Shown here: positions 1-5,941 of the stretch, piece after piece
How positions within the stretch are numbered: position 1 is the first letter of the stretch
Layout of the letters: every line of letters begins with the position of its first letter
NCBI GenBank assembly: GCA_020342025.1
Contig: CP070840.1
Location: forward strand, 1,349,819 to 1,355,759
From: Deltaproteobacteria bacterium
GTDB lineage: Bacteria > Desulfobacterota > DSM-4660 > Desulfatiglandales > HGW-15
Length of the DNA stretch: 5,941 nt
Direction of reading: 5' to 3'
Notes under the pieces: generated by a model
Told to the model about the DNA's origin: nothing
The model's database searches: none
What the model saw: only the letters and a program-made list of their open reading frames with translations
Made by a program: the position numbers and the translations under genes

Positions 1-288
1 TCAGAAAATAATGATCCCATTACTCTGGATGGATTTGGTTCAAATCGCGCTGGAGGGATCCTAGGGGGCATCTCCAATGGAGACGAGATCATCTTGAGGG
101 CAGCCATGAAGCCAATTCCTTCCATCAGCCAGGAGCAGAATACGGTTGACCGAGAAGGACAGCCATCCAAGCTGAAATTCGGTGGAAGGCACGACATCTC
201 TTCTATTCCACGGATTATTCCCGTGCTTGAGGCCATGGTCAGGATCGTCTTGGCTGATCACTATTTGCGAACAAGGGCTGTGGTATAA
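1..288 (+). CDS. aroC: Chorismate synthase, C-terminal part (5' end outside window)
   Basis: Chorismate synthase converts 5-enolpyruvylshikimate-3-phosphate to chorismate in the cytoplasm, using reduced FMN; it is the last step of the shikimate pathway. The frame is open from base 1 and ends at TAA 286-288, giving 95 residues of the C-terminus. Two family signatures are visible: SNRAGGILGGISNG (fragment residues 14-27), part of the flavin/substrate site, and GRHDISSIPRIIPVLEAM near the end, matching the GRHDP...PRAVPVxEAM block, followed by the usual IVLADHYLRTRA tail. The C-terminus ends where the family normally ends, so the 3' end is not truncated. A gap of 340 bases with repeats and hairpins separates it from the next gene, so co-transcription is uncertain. 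The identification is firm; the start and N-terminal two thirds are not visible. Confidence 0.96.
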   Translation, partial: SENNDPITLDGFGSNRAGGILGGISNGDEIILRAAMKPIPSISQEQNTVDREGQPSKLKFGGRHDISSIPRIIPVLEAMVRIVLADHYLRTRAVV

Positions 289-612: not shown

Positions 613-623
613 AAGAGGAGGAG
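613..623 (+). promoter_or_regulatory. Ribosome binding site that sets the start of the ADTHS-like gene
   Basis: AAGAGGAGGAG is a strong Shine-Dalgarno sequence ending 5 bases before the ATG at 629. It selects that ATG over an in-frame ATG at 566, which would add 21 unrelated residues and has no such site. An ATG at 624 is in another frame and meets a stop after three codons. Confidence 0.85.
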
Positions 624-628
624 ATGAG

Positions 629-1450
629 ATGTTAGGGAAAAAGATTCGTATGGAAAGGGTTATGGATCGCAATACCAGGAAAACCGTCATGGTGCCCCTG
701 ATCCATGGTGTGGGCATGGGGCCCATAGAGGGCATCAAAGATATCAAGAACACTGTGGACGTGGTCTCACTTGGGGGGGCCAATGCGGTTATTCTTCATA
801 AAGGGATTGTCGCAGCCGGACACCGGCACAGTGGAAAGGACATTGGTTTGATCCTTCACCTGACCGCCACTTCGGAAAACGGAAGACAGACGCTTGTTAC
901 TGACGTGGAAGAAGCCGTCATCATTGGGTCTGATGCGGTATCGGTCAGGGTAGATGTGGGGGGACCGGATGAAGGGAGCATGTTGAAACTGCTGGGCCGG
1001 GTGTCCAGAGATGCCTTCAGATGGGGTATGCCGCTCTACGCATTGATGGACCCGGGCAGCGTGAAAGACAAAGATAGACAGTTAAAAAACATGATGCGGG
1101 CCGCCAGGGTCGGGGCTGAAATGGGCGCAGACTTGGTACGTATACCCTATAGTGGATCAGCAGAGTCGTTCAAGGAAGTGGTCTCTGTGTGTCCCGTTCC
1201 TCTGGTCGCTATTGGGGGAGAAAAAAAGGCGAGGGAAAAGGAGTTCCTGGAGATGGTGCACAGTGTGATGGAAGCTGGCGCCTTTGGCATGTCTGCGGGC
1301 AGGAACATATTTCAGTATAAGAAACCGGGTAATATGATCAAGGCTATCGGCCAAATCGTGCACAAAGGCGTTTCCGTGTCCAAGGCTTTGGAGGTTCTCA
1401 AAGAAGAGCCCATCGAAAGCTATGTCTTTACCAGCAGTCCCATGTGGTAA
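629..1450 (+). CDS. ADTH synthase / class I FBP aldolase (DhnA) family protein with substituted catalytic residues
   Basis: The product has 273 residues and one TIM-barrel domain. It resembles archaeal 2-amino-3,7-dideoxy-D-threo-hept-6-ulosonate (ADTH) synthase along its whole length: LHKGIVAAGHR (56-66), KDIGLILHL (70-78), AARVGAEMGAD (158-168), AIGGEK (194-199) and AGRNIFQ (223-229) are all family blocks. The last two are the expected phosphate-binding loops. Aligned from memory with MJ0400, the catalytic Asp33, Tyr153 and Schiff-base Lys184 correspond to Ile25 (VPLIHG), Asp141 (LMDPG) and Arg171 (ADLVRIPYSG). Classical Schiff-base aldol chemistry is therefore doubtful. The frame is intact and has a strong ribosome binding site, so it looks functional rather than decayed. 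A tail of roughly a dozen residues ending SSPMW extends past the MJ0400 C-terminus. Its position between aroC and aroF suggests a role in aromatic metabolism, but the actual function is unknown. The family call is firm; naming it ADTH synthase would be an over-call. Confidence 0.9.
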   Translation: MLGKKIRMERVMDRNTRKTVMVPLIHGVGMGPIEGIKDIKNTVDVVSLGGANAVILHKGIVAAGHRHSGKDIGLILHLTATSENGRQTLVTDVEEAVIIGSDAVSVRVDVGGPDEGSMLKLLGRVSRDAFRWGMPLYALMDPGSVKDKDRQLKNMMRAARVGAEMGADLVRIPYSGSAESFKEVVSVCPVPLVAIGGEKKAREKEFLEMVHSVMEAGAFGMSAGRNIFQYKKPGNMIKAIGQIVHKGVSVSKALEVLKEEPIESYVFTSSPMW

Positions 1451-1829: not shown

Positions 1830-2678
1830 ATGAATAATCTCAAACTGTCATCATTAAACGGGGAGGTGGACAGGCGGACAATTGTCACCGTGGAGAATGT
1901 GAAAATAGGTGAGGAATTTGTCGTGATCGCCGGCCCCTGTAGTGTGGAGAACGAGGAGCAAACAATAAAAACAGCCCTGAAGGTCAAAGAGGCGGGTGCC
2001 AACATGCTGAGAGGGGGCGCCTTCAAACCCAGGACTTCACCCTATGACTTTCAGGGACTTGGTCTCCAGGGGCTAAAGATCCTGGAGAAGGCGAAAAAAG
2101 AGACGGGGCTCCCCGTGGTGACTGAGGTGACAGATCCTCGAGATGTCTCCTGGATAGGCGAATATGTCGATGTTTTGCAGGTCGGTACCAGAAACATGCA
2201 GAATTTCTCTCTCCTCAAAGAGGTTGGAAAAGCGGAGAAGCCTGTGCTTTTGAAGAGGGGGATGTATTCGACCCTTCAGGAATGGCTCAATTGCGCGGAG
2301 TACATACTCTCAGAAGGAAATCCCAACGTGATTCTTTGTGAAAGAGGGATAAGGACCTTTGAAACTTACACCCGGAACACTTTAGATCTGAGCATCGTCC
2401 CCTCAGTTAAGGAAGTTTCCCATCTCCCTATCATTGTTGATCCTTCTCATGGAACAGGTAGGTTAAGCCTGATTGAATCCATGAGCCTTGCCGCTATGGC
2501 GGCGGGTGCAGATGGTGTCATGATTGAAGTGCACCATAATCCTCAAGAGGCCGTATGCGATGCTAATCAAGCCATGCCACCCGAGATGTTTGCTCGCTTG
2601 ATGGAGAAGTTGTTGTCGCTACGGTCTCATTTGAATGGAATACGCCAGAGTGGGAAAAAGAGACTCGGGGGCGGGTAG
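1830..2678 (+). CDS. aroF: 3-deoxy-7-phosphoheptulonate (DAHP) synthase, type I beta, without a regulatory domain
   Basis: This enzyme condenses phosphoenolpyruvate with erythrose-4-phosphate to DAHP, the first shikimate-pathway step. The 282-residue product is one TIM-barrel domain with the family motifs in order: IAGPCSVE (33-40), [48 protein letters not shown] and EVHHNP. The expected metal ligands are present as Cys37, His207, Glu233 and Asp244. It belongs to the type I beta (KDO8P-synthase-like) group. Its length leaves room only for a short N-terminal stretch: there is neither the ferredoxin-like feedback domain of the Thermotoga enzyme nor the fused chorismate mutase of the Bacillus enzyme. 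Feedback control, if any, is therefore not built into this polypeptide. It opens a compact gene run; its stop is one base from the aroB start. The call is very secure. Confidence 0.97.
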
Positions 2679-2679
2679 C

Positions 2680-3726
2680 GTGAAGAGCTTTAAGATTCAT
2701 AGCGTTACAGGGGATTCAACCATACTGGTCGGAGAGAGTCTTCAAAATGTCAAAATGTACATTTCGTCGGAACAAGTGGTGATCATCACAGACAGTAATG
2801 TGAGGCGCCTCTATGCAAGAGACTTTCCACCCGGCGAAATCATAGAGATCGGTATGGGTGAAAAGATAAAAAACCTGGACACGGTCAAGACCATATATGG
2901 AAAGCTTTTGGAACTGGAGACTGACCGTTCATGTTTTATCGTCGGGATCGGTGGAGGTGTGGTGTGTGATATTGCCGGCTTTGTTGCCTCAACCTATCTA
3001 CGCGGCGTGCGGTTCGGGTTTGTTGCCTCAACGCTCTTATCGCAGGTGGATGCGAGTGTTGGGGGGAAAAACGGGGTGAATTTCGAGGGATATAAGAATA
3101 TGGTGGGCGTCTTTAATCAACCTGAATTCGTCATCTGTGACATGAAGCTCCTCAAGACCCTGCCAGAGAAAGAGATCTCATGCGGTCTAGCCGAGGTGGT
3201 AAAGCAGGCCGTCATAGGCGATACGGATCTGTTTTCATATCTTGAAAAGCATTACAAGAGAGTGCTTCAGCTGGATGCAGAGGTGATAGAGAAGGCTGTA
3301 TATGATTCGGTCCTCTTGAAATCATCGATTGTGAACAGGGATGAAAAAGAAAAGGGGGAGCGGAGAAAGCTCAATTTCGGCCATACCCTTGGACATGCCC
3401 TAGAAAAGACCACAGGTGCTCCCCACGGAGAGGCGGTCAGCGCAGGTATGGTGGTTGCTTCAGTCCTTTCTAAAAAAAGAGGGTATCTGAGTGCAGAGGA
3501 GATGGAGAGGATCGAGGGATTGCTCAAGAAATTCAAGCTCCCCACCAGGGTTCAACTTGATGGGAAGAGACTGCTTGATGCGGTGAGAAAGGATAAGAAG
3601 CGGGAAGGAGAGGGCATAAATTTCGTGCTGCTTCACGGCATAGGCAAGGCGGTTGTGGAAAAGATATCCATGAAAGAACTGGAGGCTGTGATCAGTGAAA
3701 TGATTTTGAATGTTAGCAATAACTAG
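2680..3726 (+). CDS. aroB: 3-dehydroquinate synthase
   Basis: AroB cyclises DAHP to 3-dehydroquinate, using bound NAD and a divalent metal. The GTG at 2680 gives 348 residues starting MKSFKIHSV, a typical AroB N-terminus, and lies one base after the aroF stop. An in-frame ATG at 2635 would add 15 residues inside aroF and has no visible ribosome site, so I prefer the GTG. The GTG itself has only a weak G-rich stretch upstream, so translation probably depends on coupling to aroF. Visible motifs are the NAD-binding GGGVVCDIAGF (91-101), QVDASVGGKNGVN (122-134), LAEVVKQ (170-176), RKLNFGHTLGHALE (229-242) and PHGEA (248-252). Metal ligands are Glu172, His235 and His249. The Asn before the GHT motif and the late DKK block favour dehydroquinate synthase over sedoheptulose-7-phosphate cyclases. 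The canonical PTT, GGKTG and FYQP motifs read AST, GGKNG and FNQP here, which looks like a subfamily variation. Confidence 0.95.
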   Translation: MKSFKIHSVTGDSTILVGESLQNVKMYISSEQVVIITDSNVRRLYARDFPPGEIIEIGMGEKIKNLDTVKTIYGKLLELETDRSCFIVGIGGGVVCDIAGFVASTYLRGVRFGFVASTLLSQVDASVGGKNGVNFEGYKNMVGVFNQPEFVICDMKLLKTLPEKEISCGLAEVVKQAVIGDTDLFSYLEKHYKRVLQLDAEVIEKAVYDSVLLKSSIVNRDEKEKGERRKLNFGHTLGHALEKTTGAPHGEAVSAGMVVASVLSKKRGYLSAEEMERIEGLLKKFKLPTRVQLDGKRLLDAVRKDKKREGEGINFVLLHGIGKAVVEKISMKELEAVISEMILNVSNN

Positions 3727-3759
3727 GCGCACATGGGTAGAGAAAACGTGGAAGCAGCG

Positions 3760-3766
3760 AGGAGGT
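3760..3766 (+). promoter_or_regulatory. Ribosome binding site that sets the pheA start
   Basis: AGGAGGT lies 5 bases before the ATG at 3772. The in-frame ATG at 3733 has no comparable site and would add 13 residues before a normal chorismate mutase N-terminus. Confidence 0.85.
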
Positions 3767-3771
3767 GTGAT

Positions 3772-4827
3772 ATGAGTTTGCTGGAGATCAGAAAAAAGAT
3801 CGACTTTATTGATTCCAAGATTCTGAAACTCTTAAATGACAGAATGGAAGTGGTCCTCATGGCCAAGAAGTTCAAAGCGCAGATAGAAGACCGGCAAAGG
3901 GAGAAGGAGGTCTTTGAGAGGATCAGGAAGAACTTAACAGGTCTGATCAATGCGGATTTTATAGAGAAGGTCTATACGGAGATTATTAAGGAAAGCAAAG
4001 CGCTTCAGCGTCAGGATTACAAACTCATCGCATTCCAGGGTGAACACGGCGCATATGGTGACGTGGCCTCAAGGGCATGGAACAGCGACCTGGTTCCTGT
4101 GCCGTGCAGTCAGTTCGCCGAGGTGTTTGAAGGGGTCAGATCTGGTCTCTATGACTATGGAATTGTTCCCGTGGAAAACACACTTGGCGGTTCTGTGGAA
4201 CAGGTGAACCACCTTCTCATCGACACGGATCTCAATGTGGTGGGGGCGGTTGAGCTTCCCATTCACCTCTGTCTGCTTGCCCTGCCCGGAACGGACCACA
4301 GGGAGATCCGTACCGTATACTCTCATCCCCAGGCCCTTGCACAGGCCCGTCGATTTCTTTCAAGGAATAAACTGGATCCTGTGCAGTATTATGATACGGC
4401 GGGTGCGGCAAGAATGTTGGCGGAAGAAAGGCCAAAAGGGTCTGCCGCCATTGCGAGTAGACTTTGTGCGGAGCTCTATCACCTTGAAATTATAAAGGAG
4501 GATATAGAGGATCTTGAGAGAAACATGACGAGGTTCCTGGTGGTCTCGAAGGAAGAGAACGAGGAAGAAGGCGACAAATGCTCCGTAGTTTTTTCAACAG
4601 AGCACAAGGCAGGCACGCTTTTCCGTGTCCTTGAAGAGTTCGCTAGGGAAAATATTAATTTGACAAGAATAGAGTCCGTACCGAGCGAGCCTGGGAACTA
4701 CGCATTCTTCGTGGATTTTATGGGGGCAACCAAAGATAAAAACGTGGTTGAAGCACTGGAAAAGGTAAAAGGGATTACTAGGCAATTTAAATTGATCGGC
4801 TGTTACAAGGAACGGAAAGTGTCATGA
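3772..4827 (+). CDS. pheA: Bifunctional chorismate mutase / prephenate dehydratase with ACT domain
   Basis: The protein turns chorismate into prephenate and then phenylpyruvate, the phenylalanine precursor. It has 351 residues in three domains. Residues 1-82 form an AroQ-type chorismate mutase; the residues matching the E. coli site are Arg7, Arg24, Lys35, Asp40, Arg43, Glu44, Ser75 and Gln79, with a helix-connecting loop about four residues shorter. Residues 84-260 form the dehydratase, with FQGEHGAY (88-95), VPVENTLGGSV (132-142), YSHPQA (183-188) and the catalytic TRF (253-255). Residues 270-351 form an ACT domain. In the ACT domain the phenylalanine-binding GAL and ESRP motifs read GTL (281-283) and ESVP (301-304), so feedback inhibition may be altered. 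A gap of 45 bases follows aroB, and the end overlaps tyrA by four bases. The function call is very secure; the regulatory inference is not. Confidence 0.96.
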   Translation: MSLLEIRKKIDFIDSKILKLLNDRMEVVLMAKKFKAQIEDRQREKEVFERIRKNLTGLINADFIEKVYTEIIKESKALQRQDYKLIAFQGEHGAYGDVASRAWNSDLVPVPCSQFAEVFEGVRSGLYDYGIVPVENTLGGSVEQVNHLLIDTDLNVVGAVELPIHLCLLALPGTDHREIRTVYSHPQALAQARRFLSRNKLDPVQYYDTAGAARMLAEERPKGSAAIASRLCAELYHLEIIKEDIEDLERNMTRFLVVSKEENEEEGDKCSVVFSTEHKAGTLFRVLEEFARENINLTRIESVPSEPGNYAFFVDFMGATKDKNVVEALEKVKGITRQFKLIGCYKERKVS

Positions 4828-5597
4828 GGATATGTATTATGGGTGCCGGGCACATGGGTGCCTGGCTTGTGGAGGAGTTCTGTCTCGACCATGATGTGGC
4901 TGTCTATGATACAGACAGAAGAAAGCTAAAATACTTTTTTAACGTAAAAAGGCTCCTTGATCTTGCGGAGGTCAAGGAATTTGAGCCTGAGCTTCTGATT
5001 AACGCCGTAAGCCTTCCCAATGTCTATAAGGCATTTAGCGACGCCCTTCCCCACATACCCGAAGACTGTATTCTTTCAGATATTGCATCGGTAAAGACGG
5101 GCATATATGATTACTACAAAAAAGTTGGCAAGAGATTTGTCTCCACCCATCCCATGTTCGGCCCCACCTTTGCCAACATCAGGGACCTTCGCGATGAGAA
5201 TGCGATCATTATTGAGGAGTCTGAGGAGGAAGGAAAAGAGTTCTTTAGAGATTTCTACAAAGGCCTTAATCTTCATGTCTATGAGTACACATTTGAAGAA
5301 CACGACAAGACCATTGCTTATTCCCTTTCAGTTCCCTTTGCTTCATCAATGGTGTTTGCTGCTTGTATGAAGAGACAGGAGGCACCAGGTACCACGTTTA
5401 GAAAGCACCTGGATATTGCGAAAGGGCTCCTTTCAGAGGACGATCATCTCCTGGCCGAGGTCATGTTCAATCCCAATACAGTGAGGCAGATAGAAGGAAT
5501 CAATTCGCAGTTAGCGTACCTGACGCATATTATCAGAGGCAGGGATTACGAGGAGATGGAGAAGTTCCTGAATAAATTGAGAAACAATATTGAATAA
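4824..5597 (+). CDS. tyrA: Prephenate dehydrogenase, short form without ACT domain
   Basis: TyrA oxidatively decarboxylates prephenate to 4-hydroxyphenylpyruvate, the tyrosine precursor; arogenate cannot be excluded as substrate. The 257-residue product starts with a Rossmann nucleotide-binding motif, GAGHMG (7-12). Asp29 at the end of the second strand (VYDTDR) suggests NAD preference. SDIASVK (85-91) and STHPMFGP (107-114, catalytic His109) are family motifs, and EEHDKTIAY (158-166) starts the helical dimerisation domain. Where several TyrA proteins have SHLPH after that motif, this one has LSVPF, so two histidines are replaced by Ser169 and Phe172. It lacks an ACT domain or fused chorismate mutase and is shorter than many family members. 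The ATG overlaps the pheA stop (ATGA), pointing to translational coupling. The call is secure; substrate and cofactor choice are inferred. Confidence 0.93.
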   Translation: MRICIMGAGHMGAWLVEEFCLDHDVAVYDTDRRKLKYFFNVKRLLDLAEVKEFEPELLINAVSLPNVYKAFSDALPHIPEDCILSDIASVKTGIYDYYKKVGKRFVSTHPMFGPTFANIRDLRDENAIIIEESEEEGKEFFRDFYKGLNLHVYEYTFEEHDKTIAYSLSVPFASSMVFAACMKRQEAPGTTFRKHLDIAKGLLSEDDHLLAEVMFNPNTVRQIEGINSQLAYLTHIIRGRDYEEMEKFLNKLRNNIE

Positions 5598-5619: not shown

Positions 5620-5941
5620 ATGATCTGCATTCCCATCACCGCCAAAAATACTGAGGAGGCCCTCGAAAGAATAGCCCGGGCCAATGCCGTCGGTGATATG
5701 CTAGAAATTCGTCTGGACATGATGGAGAACTTCGATCTGCACGAAATGATTCAGGCCGCATCCAAGCCTGCGCTGGTTACCTACCGATCCATAGGGGAAG
5801 GGGGAAAAGGAACCGCGGATGATAAGACGCAAGCTAGTTACTTGTTAAGTGCTCTTGAAGAAGGTGCAGAACTTGTGGATGTGGAGCGGCGTTTACCTGA
5901 AGAATGGCGGGGAAAAATCTTTCGGGCACGCGGTAAGTCCA
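5620..5941 (+). CDS. aroD: Type I 3-dehydroquinate dehydratase, N-terminal part (3' end outside window)
   Basis: This enzyme dehydrates 3-dehydroquinate to 3-dehydroshikimate, shikimate-pathway step 3; type I enzymes use a Schiff-base lysine. The ATG at 5620 opens a frame that continues to the window end, giving 107 complete codons. The N-terminus MICIPITA is typical of the family. EIRLD (29-33) and LVTYRSIGEGGKG (52-64) match the substrate-binding EWRxD and TxRxxxEGG blocks, and ELVDVE comes at the next barrel strand. The catalytic His and Lys would lie beyond the window. An in-frame TAG at 5614-5616 rules out an earlier start, yet no purine-rich ribosome site is visible in the 22-base gap after tyrA. 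Whether the gene is fused to shikimate dehydrogenase (aroE), as happens in some bacteria, cannot be seen here. Confidence 0.93.
   Translation, partial: MICIPITAKNTEEALERIARANAVGDMLEIRLDMMENFDLHEMIQAASKPALVTYRSIGEGGKGTADDKTQASYLLSALEEGAELVDVERRLPEEWRGKIFRARGKS

Follow-up and report, generated by a model that had tools for sequence, protein, structure and literature searches.

The window, by which we mean the whole stretch of DNA analysed (5,941 nucleotides from a Deltaproteobacteria bacterium), holds an operon-like row of genes, all on the + strand. A gene for a protein of 273 amino acids related to ADTH synthase (2-amino-3,7-dideoxy-D-threo-hept-6-ulosonate synthase) lies in this row between the end of aroC and a gene for DAHP synthase. 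The genes and the ribosome site are as follows:

1..288, + strand: aroC (chorismate synthase), 3' end (PF01264, 102 bits)
616..621, + strand: Shine-Dalgarno sequence AGGAGG, seven bases 5' of the ATG (sequence)
629..1450, + strand: pseudo-ADTH synthase gene, 273 aa, open ORF (PF01791, 144.5 bits)
1830..2678, + strand: type I-beta DAHP synthase without the N-terminal regulatory domain (TIGR01361, 401 bits)
2680..3726, + strand: canonical aroB, start codon uncertain (TIGR01357, 342 bits, cut-off 305)
3733..4827, + strand: chorismate mutase-prephenate dehydratase-ACT (profile match)
4824..5597, + strand: TyrA-like dehydrogenase (PF02153, 37.6 bits)
5620..5941, + strand: aroD, type I dehydroquinase, cut by the window end (PF01487)

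A preliminary description had credited the gene with a clean frame and a strong ribosome site, and the open frame at 629-1450 and the AGGAGG at 616-621 bear out both. The PRK08673 profile matches the window DAHP synthase only from position 78 on, and the nearest solved chains of this enzyme are 1vs1 and 1zco. Judged by the families of its genes, the operon encodes the common DAHP entry route. No Rfam element scored above threshold in the window, and the repeats around the gene (289-1829) were limited to three inverted pairs. Two non-coding gaps in the window are long, 289-628 and 1451-1829.

Replacement of the catalytic residues

The window protein was aligned by phmmer with the ADTH synthase MJ0400 (2qjg_A) at an E-value of 2.6e-71, and the alignment spans residues 2-258. 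Tyr153 is one of the catalytic residues of MJ0400. Asp33 is described as its proton acceptor and Lys184 as the residue that forms the Schiff base (PMC4162585). All three are replaced in the window protein, as the preliminary description had claimed, and the Schiff-base position is occupied by an arginine instead of a conserved lysine:

701..703, + strand: ATC codon of I25, at Asp33 of MJ0400 (sequence and phmmer alignment)
1049..1051, + strand: GAC codon of D141, at Tyr153 of MJ0400 (sequence and phmmer alignment)
1139..1141, + strand: CGT codon of R171, at the Schiff-base Lys184 (sequence and phmmer alignment)

A clade without the Schiff-base lysine

A sequencing error or a lone mutant, which had been considered as a possible source of these residues, is ruled out, since P0002-P0007, the six closest homologs among the matches listed (90-96% identity), carry the same I/D/R residues rather than Asp/Tyr/Lys. 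The wider comparison comprised 142 protein clusters (the query, the best 120 of 1420 matches and the best 120 of 2427 matches), a sample that leans to near relatives, and 113 of these 142 clusters have no Schiff-base Lys. Among the matches listed, the residue at position 171 of these 113 is Arg in 97, Ser in 9, Leu in 3, and Gln, Cys, Thr and Gly in one each; Asp at position 25 is found in none of them, two having a gap there. All 29 Lys clusters, again among the matches listed, have Asp, His and Tyr at positions 25, 107 and 141.

The preliminary description had proposed a tree as the way of seeing whether the variant forms a clade. The tree was built from 104 rows, picked for spread and length, which consisted of 72 of the 142 P clusters, 29 locus proteins, MJ0400, LsrF and the T. 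tenax FBP aldolase. Omitted from it were fragments, near-copies such as L030, L036, L049 and L073, proteins with an unclear start (L043) or an internal stop (L027), the fragment L047, the split gene of genome G006, and the more distant paralogs L075 (G128) and L076 (G092). A single clade, on a branch of 0.46, held 65 of the 66 non-Lys rows with an SH-aLRT value of 100, the measure of support used in this quick search, which had no bootstrap. The clade consists of an Arg subclade of 55 rows, which includes the window protein and five rows with L, S or Q, and of a mostly Ser subclade of 10 rows.

Positions lost, kept and newly constrained

The loss exceeds three residues, H119, N121, R155 and G156 (MJ0400 numbering) being replaced too. 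Together with D33, Y153 and K184 these positions are invariant in 36 of 36 Lys rows and kept in 0-6% of the 65 clade rows. Sixty-one positions are invariant among the Lys rows; ten of them (the seven named and query positions 87, 139 and 195) survive in no more than 6% of the 65 clade rows, and 34 are kept in at least 95%. The Schiff-base Lys is present in 0 of 65 clade rows, Asp at the Asp33 site in 0% and Tyr at the Tyr153 site in 3%.

As for Ile/Asp/Arg being a conserved form, the clade without lysine is real but the I/D/R combination is not fixed within it. At position 25 clade members have I, V, T, F or S; among the 55 rows of the Arg subclade, position 141 is D in 26, H in 23, N in two, Y in two, F in one and R in one; and at position 171 a few members have L, Q or S, and the sister subclade mostly S. 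Because Asp at 141 is not fixed, I/D/R is no new conserved triad, and the variability at positions 25, 141 and 171 leans to a non-catalytic role over a new Arg-based enzyme. The mean entropy of the seven lost positions in the Arg subclade was 1.58 bits, against 0.87 for all columns, and 98% of random seven-column sets were as variable or less, in a test whose seven positions were picked partly after the loss had been noticed. Among these seven, R107 is invariant in the Arg subclade and R171 is fairly conserved.

The phosphate-binding loops and the fold, which the earlier reading had taken to be intact, are indeed so in the clade alignment and in the fold tests. H34, K66, GG209-210 and GR237-238 (MJ0400 numbering) are present in every or almost every clade row, and the window protein retains H26, K58, the phosphate loops GG196-197 and GR224-225, and the (beta/alpha)8 fold. 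H26, H57, K58, R107 and R157 are invariant across the 55 Arg-subclade rows, a pattern that would also suit a new enzyme. Three features distinguish clade rows from Lys rows or belong to the clade alone:

947..949, + strand: codon of R107, at His119 of MJ0400 (Arg throughout the Arg subclade, 55 of 55; His throughout the Lys rows, 36 of 36)
1322..1333, + strand: KPGN motif, residues 232-235 (its Gly and Asn in all 65 clade rows and none of the 36 Lys rows)
1412..1447, + strand: clade-specific C-terminal tail, residues 262-273, with a Trp end (residues 268-273 at pLDDT below 50)

Newly constrained in the clade are N41, D44, G234, N235 and W273, with G234 and N235 in 65 of 65 rows and W273 in 64. 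Among the matches listed, 106 of the 113 non-Lys proteins and 0 of the 29 Lys proteins end in Trp; six of the seven non-Lys proteins without it are truncated (181-228 aa), and the seventh, P0054, is of full length. The Ser subclade (n = 10) has an altered pocket, with N57 in 10 of 10 rows, R107 in 5 of 10, Arg at 105 in 10 of 10 and S, T, C or G at 171, and retains KPGN and the Trp tail.

The clade gene is under strong purifying selection. The dN/dS ratio of the window gene was 0.091 against L001, 0.101 against L002 and 0.083 against L004, these being the three of six window comparisons in which it was computable, with dS saturated for L003, L050 and L051. Selection for a job other than Schiff-base chemistry, as had been suggested, fits the monophyly, the dN/dS values, the retained fold and loops and the new motifs, and it fits the canonical AroB and DAHP synthase of the window operon as well.

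Family profiles and nearest known proteins

The window protein matched the DeoC/LacD aldolase superfamily model PF01791 (144.5 bits, cut-off 23.8). With the ADTH synthase equivalog model TIGR01949 it scored 266 bits, below the cut-off of 299.45; four other clade members scored 233-262, and Lys-bearing controls 381-383. It was also below the cut-offs of NF040816 for archaeal-type FBP aldolase (141.2 vs 430), NF006081 for the LsrF thiolase (151.1 vs 297) and NF041223 for the BagB/FevI aldolases (151.7 bits vs 500). The NCBI subfamily model NF005556 gave 291 bits, above its cut-off of 241, and 5 of 5 clade members tested exceeded that cut-off. P0004 and P0023 are named ADTH synthase in a public source, a name against which the evidence speaks. 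Since this is also the name that NF005556 gives, pathway predictors trusting it would wrongly infer an ADTH route.

Compared with MJ0400, the window protein shares the fold and the phosphate loops, and differs in the replacement of D33, H119, N121, Y153, R155, G156 and K184, in its extra Trp-ended C-terminal tail and in its score below the TIGR01949 equivalog cut-off; the window operon, moreover, encodes the DAHP route. LsrF (3-hydroxy-5-phosphonooxypentane-2,4-dione thiolase) is 29% identical to the window protein and keeps Asp and Lys at the aligned sites. The BagB/FevI aldolases of aminohydroxybenzoate-type synthesis have the superfamily in common with it (NF041223 match); GriI is a further aldolase of this type, and BagB, FevI and GriI use Schiff-base chemistry. 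LacD.1 of Streptococcus pyogenes, which retains its catalytic residues, sets a precedent within the DeoC/LacD superfamily, as it is an aldolase paralog that acts as a regulator. LacD.1 belongs to another branch and another pathway than the clade protein. No description of a Lys-less ADTH synthase clade was found in the literature, searched mostly at abstract level, and the clade would thus be, per the literature found, a previously undescribed variant of a known superfamily.

Gene neighbourhood

aroC lies directly upstream of the clade gene at 8 of the 9 loci with a visible upstream gene (the window, L001, L003, L004 (= L057), L052, L053, L054 and L055); L002, cut too close, was left out of this count. 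The exception is L005, where a histidine kinase gene is found upstream and unrelated genes downstream. The clade gene is followed directly by DAHP synthase in the window, L001, L002, L003 and L055. In other genomes intact ADTH synthase genes fill the same slot, followed by their own PheA type, so that adjacency to aroC may go back to the ADTH synthase operon and is not necessarily a sign of interaction. L057 has a PheA of this ADTH-operon type (57% to that of L059) after the clade gene and ahead of DAHP synthase. Both entry routes stand side by side in L062 (G014), where a single cluster reads aroK-aroC-DAHP synthase-aroB-pheA and then canonical ADTH synthase, a second PheA and AroB'.

Host genomes and entry route

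Clade members were found in six (G001-G006) of the 85 genomes searched in the class of G001. No canonical ADTH synthase was found in these six at E <= 1e-50; for the weaker relatives that G001-G004 and G006 do contain, LsrF is the best-scoring model, and L022, L023 and L024 are fragments or partial matches. AroB and type I DAHP synthase are both present in five of the six (G001-G004 and G006), and AroB' (PF01959) in 0 of 6. G005 shows neither AroB, AroB' nor type I DAHP synthase, its PF00793 match being a KDO8P synthase.

A draw of 395 genomes from the phylum gave five matches at E <= 1e-104, in G001, G002, G092, G128 and G163, and only Arg-subclade members were matched. G092, G128 and G163, the three genomes examined from their class, all have AroB' and lack AroB, and none shows a type I DAHP synthase, the sole PF00793 match (G092) being a KDO8P synthase. 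Both G092 and G128 possess, apart from the clade gene, a canonical ADTH synthase (382 and 383 bits) whose catalytic set is complete; its gene is located in front of trp genes, and the clade gene follows aroK-aroC; no separate canonical copy was found in G163. All of these genomes are drafts, so the absences are weak evidence and may be assembly gaps. Since the clade gene is found with either entry route, it is not simply the remnant of a route switch.

Two other roles were considered and found little support. A prozyme-like activator of an intact ADTH synthase is not supported as the general role in G001-G006, which show no such synthase at E <= 1e-50. Nor is a TrpF substitute supported, as five of the nine clade genomes have a full TrpF match (G002, G003, G006, G092 and G128); G004 and G005 gave a weak partial match, and TrpF was not found in G001 and G163. 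The clade gene of G006 (L055 11413-12236) is split over two overlapping frames, through either an assembly error or a real frameshift.

Predicted aromatic attenuators

Four clade operons (L001, L003, L004 and L055) have short ORFs rich in Phe, Tyr and Trp ahead of aroK or aroC, and such ORFs also precede DAHP synthase (L001, L002 and L055) and canonical ADTH synthase (L077 and L078). The leader peptides, such as MIDLIEDYWRGFYFYWGKGPPTR, often end in GPP or GLPM-like motifs. Leaders were located at L001 6507-6578, L002 1364-1486 and L055 12243-12365, and further ones at L001 3458-3565, L003 3694-3822, L004 6514-6594, L055 9604-9675, L005 7710-7787 and L077 5569-5694. Each of the eight leader regions folded has a terminator-like hairpin, with z from -0.70 (L077) to -4.99 (L003), and the fold of the L077 leader, which belongs to a canonical ADTH synthase, does not stand out from shuffles in stability (43 of 200). 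Such a leader arose within 400 bases in 12 of 2000 Markov resamplings and in 11 of 1206 background windows, true leaders included, at a leader threshold fixed once the first leaders were known; the examination covered 18 gene starts. From their sequences, leaders and hairpins likely form an aromatic amino acid attenuator family in these Deltaproteobacteria.

The sequences ahead of aroK (L052-L054), the clade gene (L004 and L053) and DAHP synthase (L003) gave no leader ORF, and neither did the visible part of the window. The gap at 1451-1829 of the window is a poor match to the attenuator occupying this place in L001, L002 and L055, and the window copy of this DAHP-synthase-side attenuator seems to have been lost or replaced.

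At L005 the clade gene, standing away from aro genes, is preceded by a predicted Phe/Tyr attenuator of its own. The leader MHCNQSREDFYFYFYFSTGGGLPVD, with its FYFYFYF run, occupies 7710-7787 and ends 213 bases before the clade gene, and a hairpin with a T run follows at about 7805-7848. The fold of 7700-7860 has a z of -6.72, and 0 of 200 shuffles were as stable. This predicted attenuator is the best evidence that the clade protein serves aromatic metabolism and is more than a bystander.

Discussion

We lean, with modest confidence, towards the clade protein being a pseudoenzyme derived from ADTH synthase that acts as a phospholigand-binding regulator or scaffold of the shared chorismate trunk. 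The ancestor would have been an ADTH synthase that lost the residues making and using the Schiff base and kept its fold. Its clade descendants would be unable to form ADTH and may still bind a phosphorylated ligand, perhaps one of the aromatic pathway, in a more cationic pocket, and the new tail and the KPGN surface would be their means of acting on a partner within the shared chorismate trunk. The neighbours AroC and AroK appear to be the best candidates for this partner, because both are shared by hosts with either entry pathway. Expression of the clade gene is predicted to track the supply of aromatic amino acids in the hosts that bear attenuators. A fuller version is possible, and we offer it tentatively. 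These proteins, regulatory pseudoenzymes of Desulfobacterota-like bacteria that arose from an ADTH synthase duplicate, might sense a phosphorylated intermediate of the shikimate pathway (e.g. shikimate 3-phosphate or EPSP) in what was once the active site, control or channel the chorismate trunk via the C-terminal Trp tail, and have outlived the swap of their hosts from the ADTH to the DAHP route.

Because several charged pocket residues are kept in the Arg subclade, the main rival is a new enzyme that dispenses with the Schiff base. It would act on a phosphorylated substrate belonging to the aromatic pathway or close to it, by means of H26, H57, K58, the phosphate loops and the newly acquired R107 and R157. 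The zero entropy of H26, H57, K58, R107, R157, S222, G224 and R225 in the 55 Arg-subclade rows speaks for such an enzyme, as does the strong purifying selection. However, no missing step was found, aroA, aroB or AroB', aroC, aroD, aroE and aroK each occurring in some clade locus or genome (not tallied genome by genome); the TrpF step has its full match in five of nine clade genomes; and the Ser subclade alters the pocket yet keeps KPGN and the Trp tail. On balance we regard a new enzyme as rather unlikely. We find it improbable that the protein is a dedicated regulator or subunit of DAHP synthase in place of the missing N-terminal regulatory domain. The operon DAHP synthase does lack that domain and directly follows the clade gene at five loci, but G092, G128 and G163 show no type I DAHP synthase, and in L001, L002 and L055 the two genes have a predicted attenuator between them.

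An ADTH synthase that works with another lysine is very improbable. Most clade members do conserve K58, K199, K232 and K238, and NF005556 supplies the name; against this, D33, H119, Y153 and K184 are lost jointly, K58 and K199 occur in Lys rows too, G092 and G128 have a separate intact copy, and G001-G006 show no AroB' to use the product. It is scarcely credible that the gene is a vestige of the switch to the DAHP route, decaying or neutral, even though it occupies the slot of its relatives' intact ADTH synthase, is still trailed in L057 by the ADTH-operon PheA type and is split over two frames in the draft genome G006. A vestige would sit poorly with a dN/dS of about 0.1, with one clade of two deep subclades and new conserved motifs, and with coexistence alongside an intact ADTH synthase in G092 and G128.

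The clade is a clear natural example of an entry-step enzyme that gave rise to a non-Schiff-base paralog, one that stayed with the pathway in hosts that use two chemistries for that step. With the regulatory pseudoenzyme as the preferred reading, the clade protein would be a testable candidate for a so far unrecognised control point of chorismate synthesis.

Other ADTH synthase-like paralogs

Further paralogs were seen outside the clade. L076 (G092) and L075 (G128) represent a third, more distant ADTH synthase-like paralog, with 158 bits for the clade profile; L076 scored 202 bits with TIGR01949, below the cut-off. Two ADTH synthase paralogs per genome are present in G045 (L058 6658-7671 and 13901-14779) and in G074 (L065 and L066), and in both genomes both copies have Asp, His, Tyr and Lys at the catalytic positions. 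The one non-Lys row that falls outside the clade of 65 is L046 (= L064 8263-9168, G071), which has a long branch, carries I, Q, C and N at positions 25, 107, 141 and 171, is without the Trp tail and adjoins a LemA gene. By its residues and its place in the tree, it looks like an independent loss of the catalytic set.
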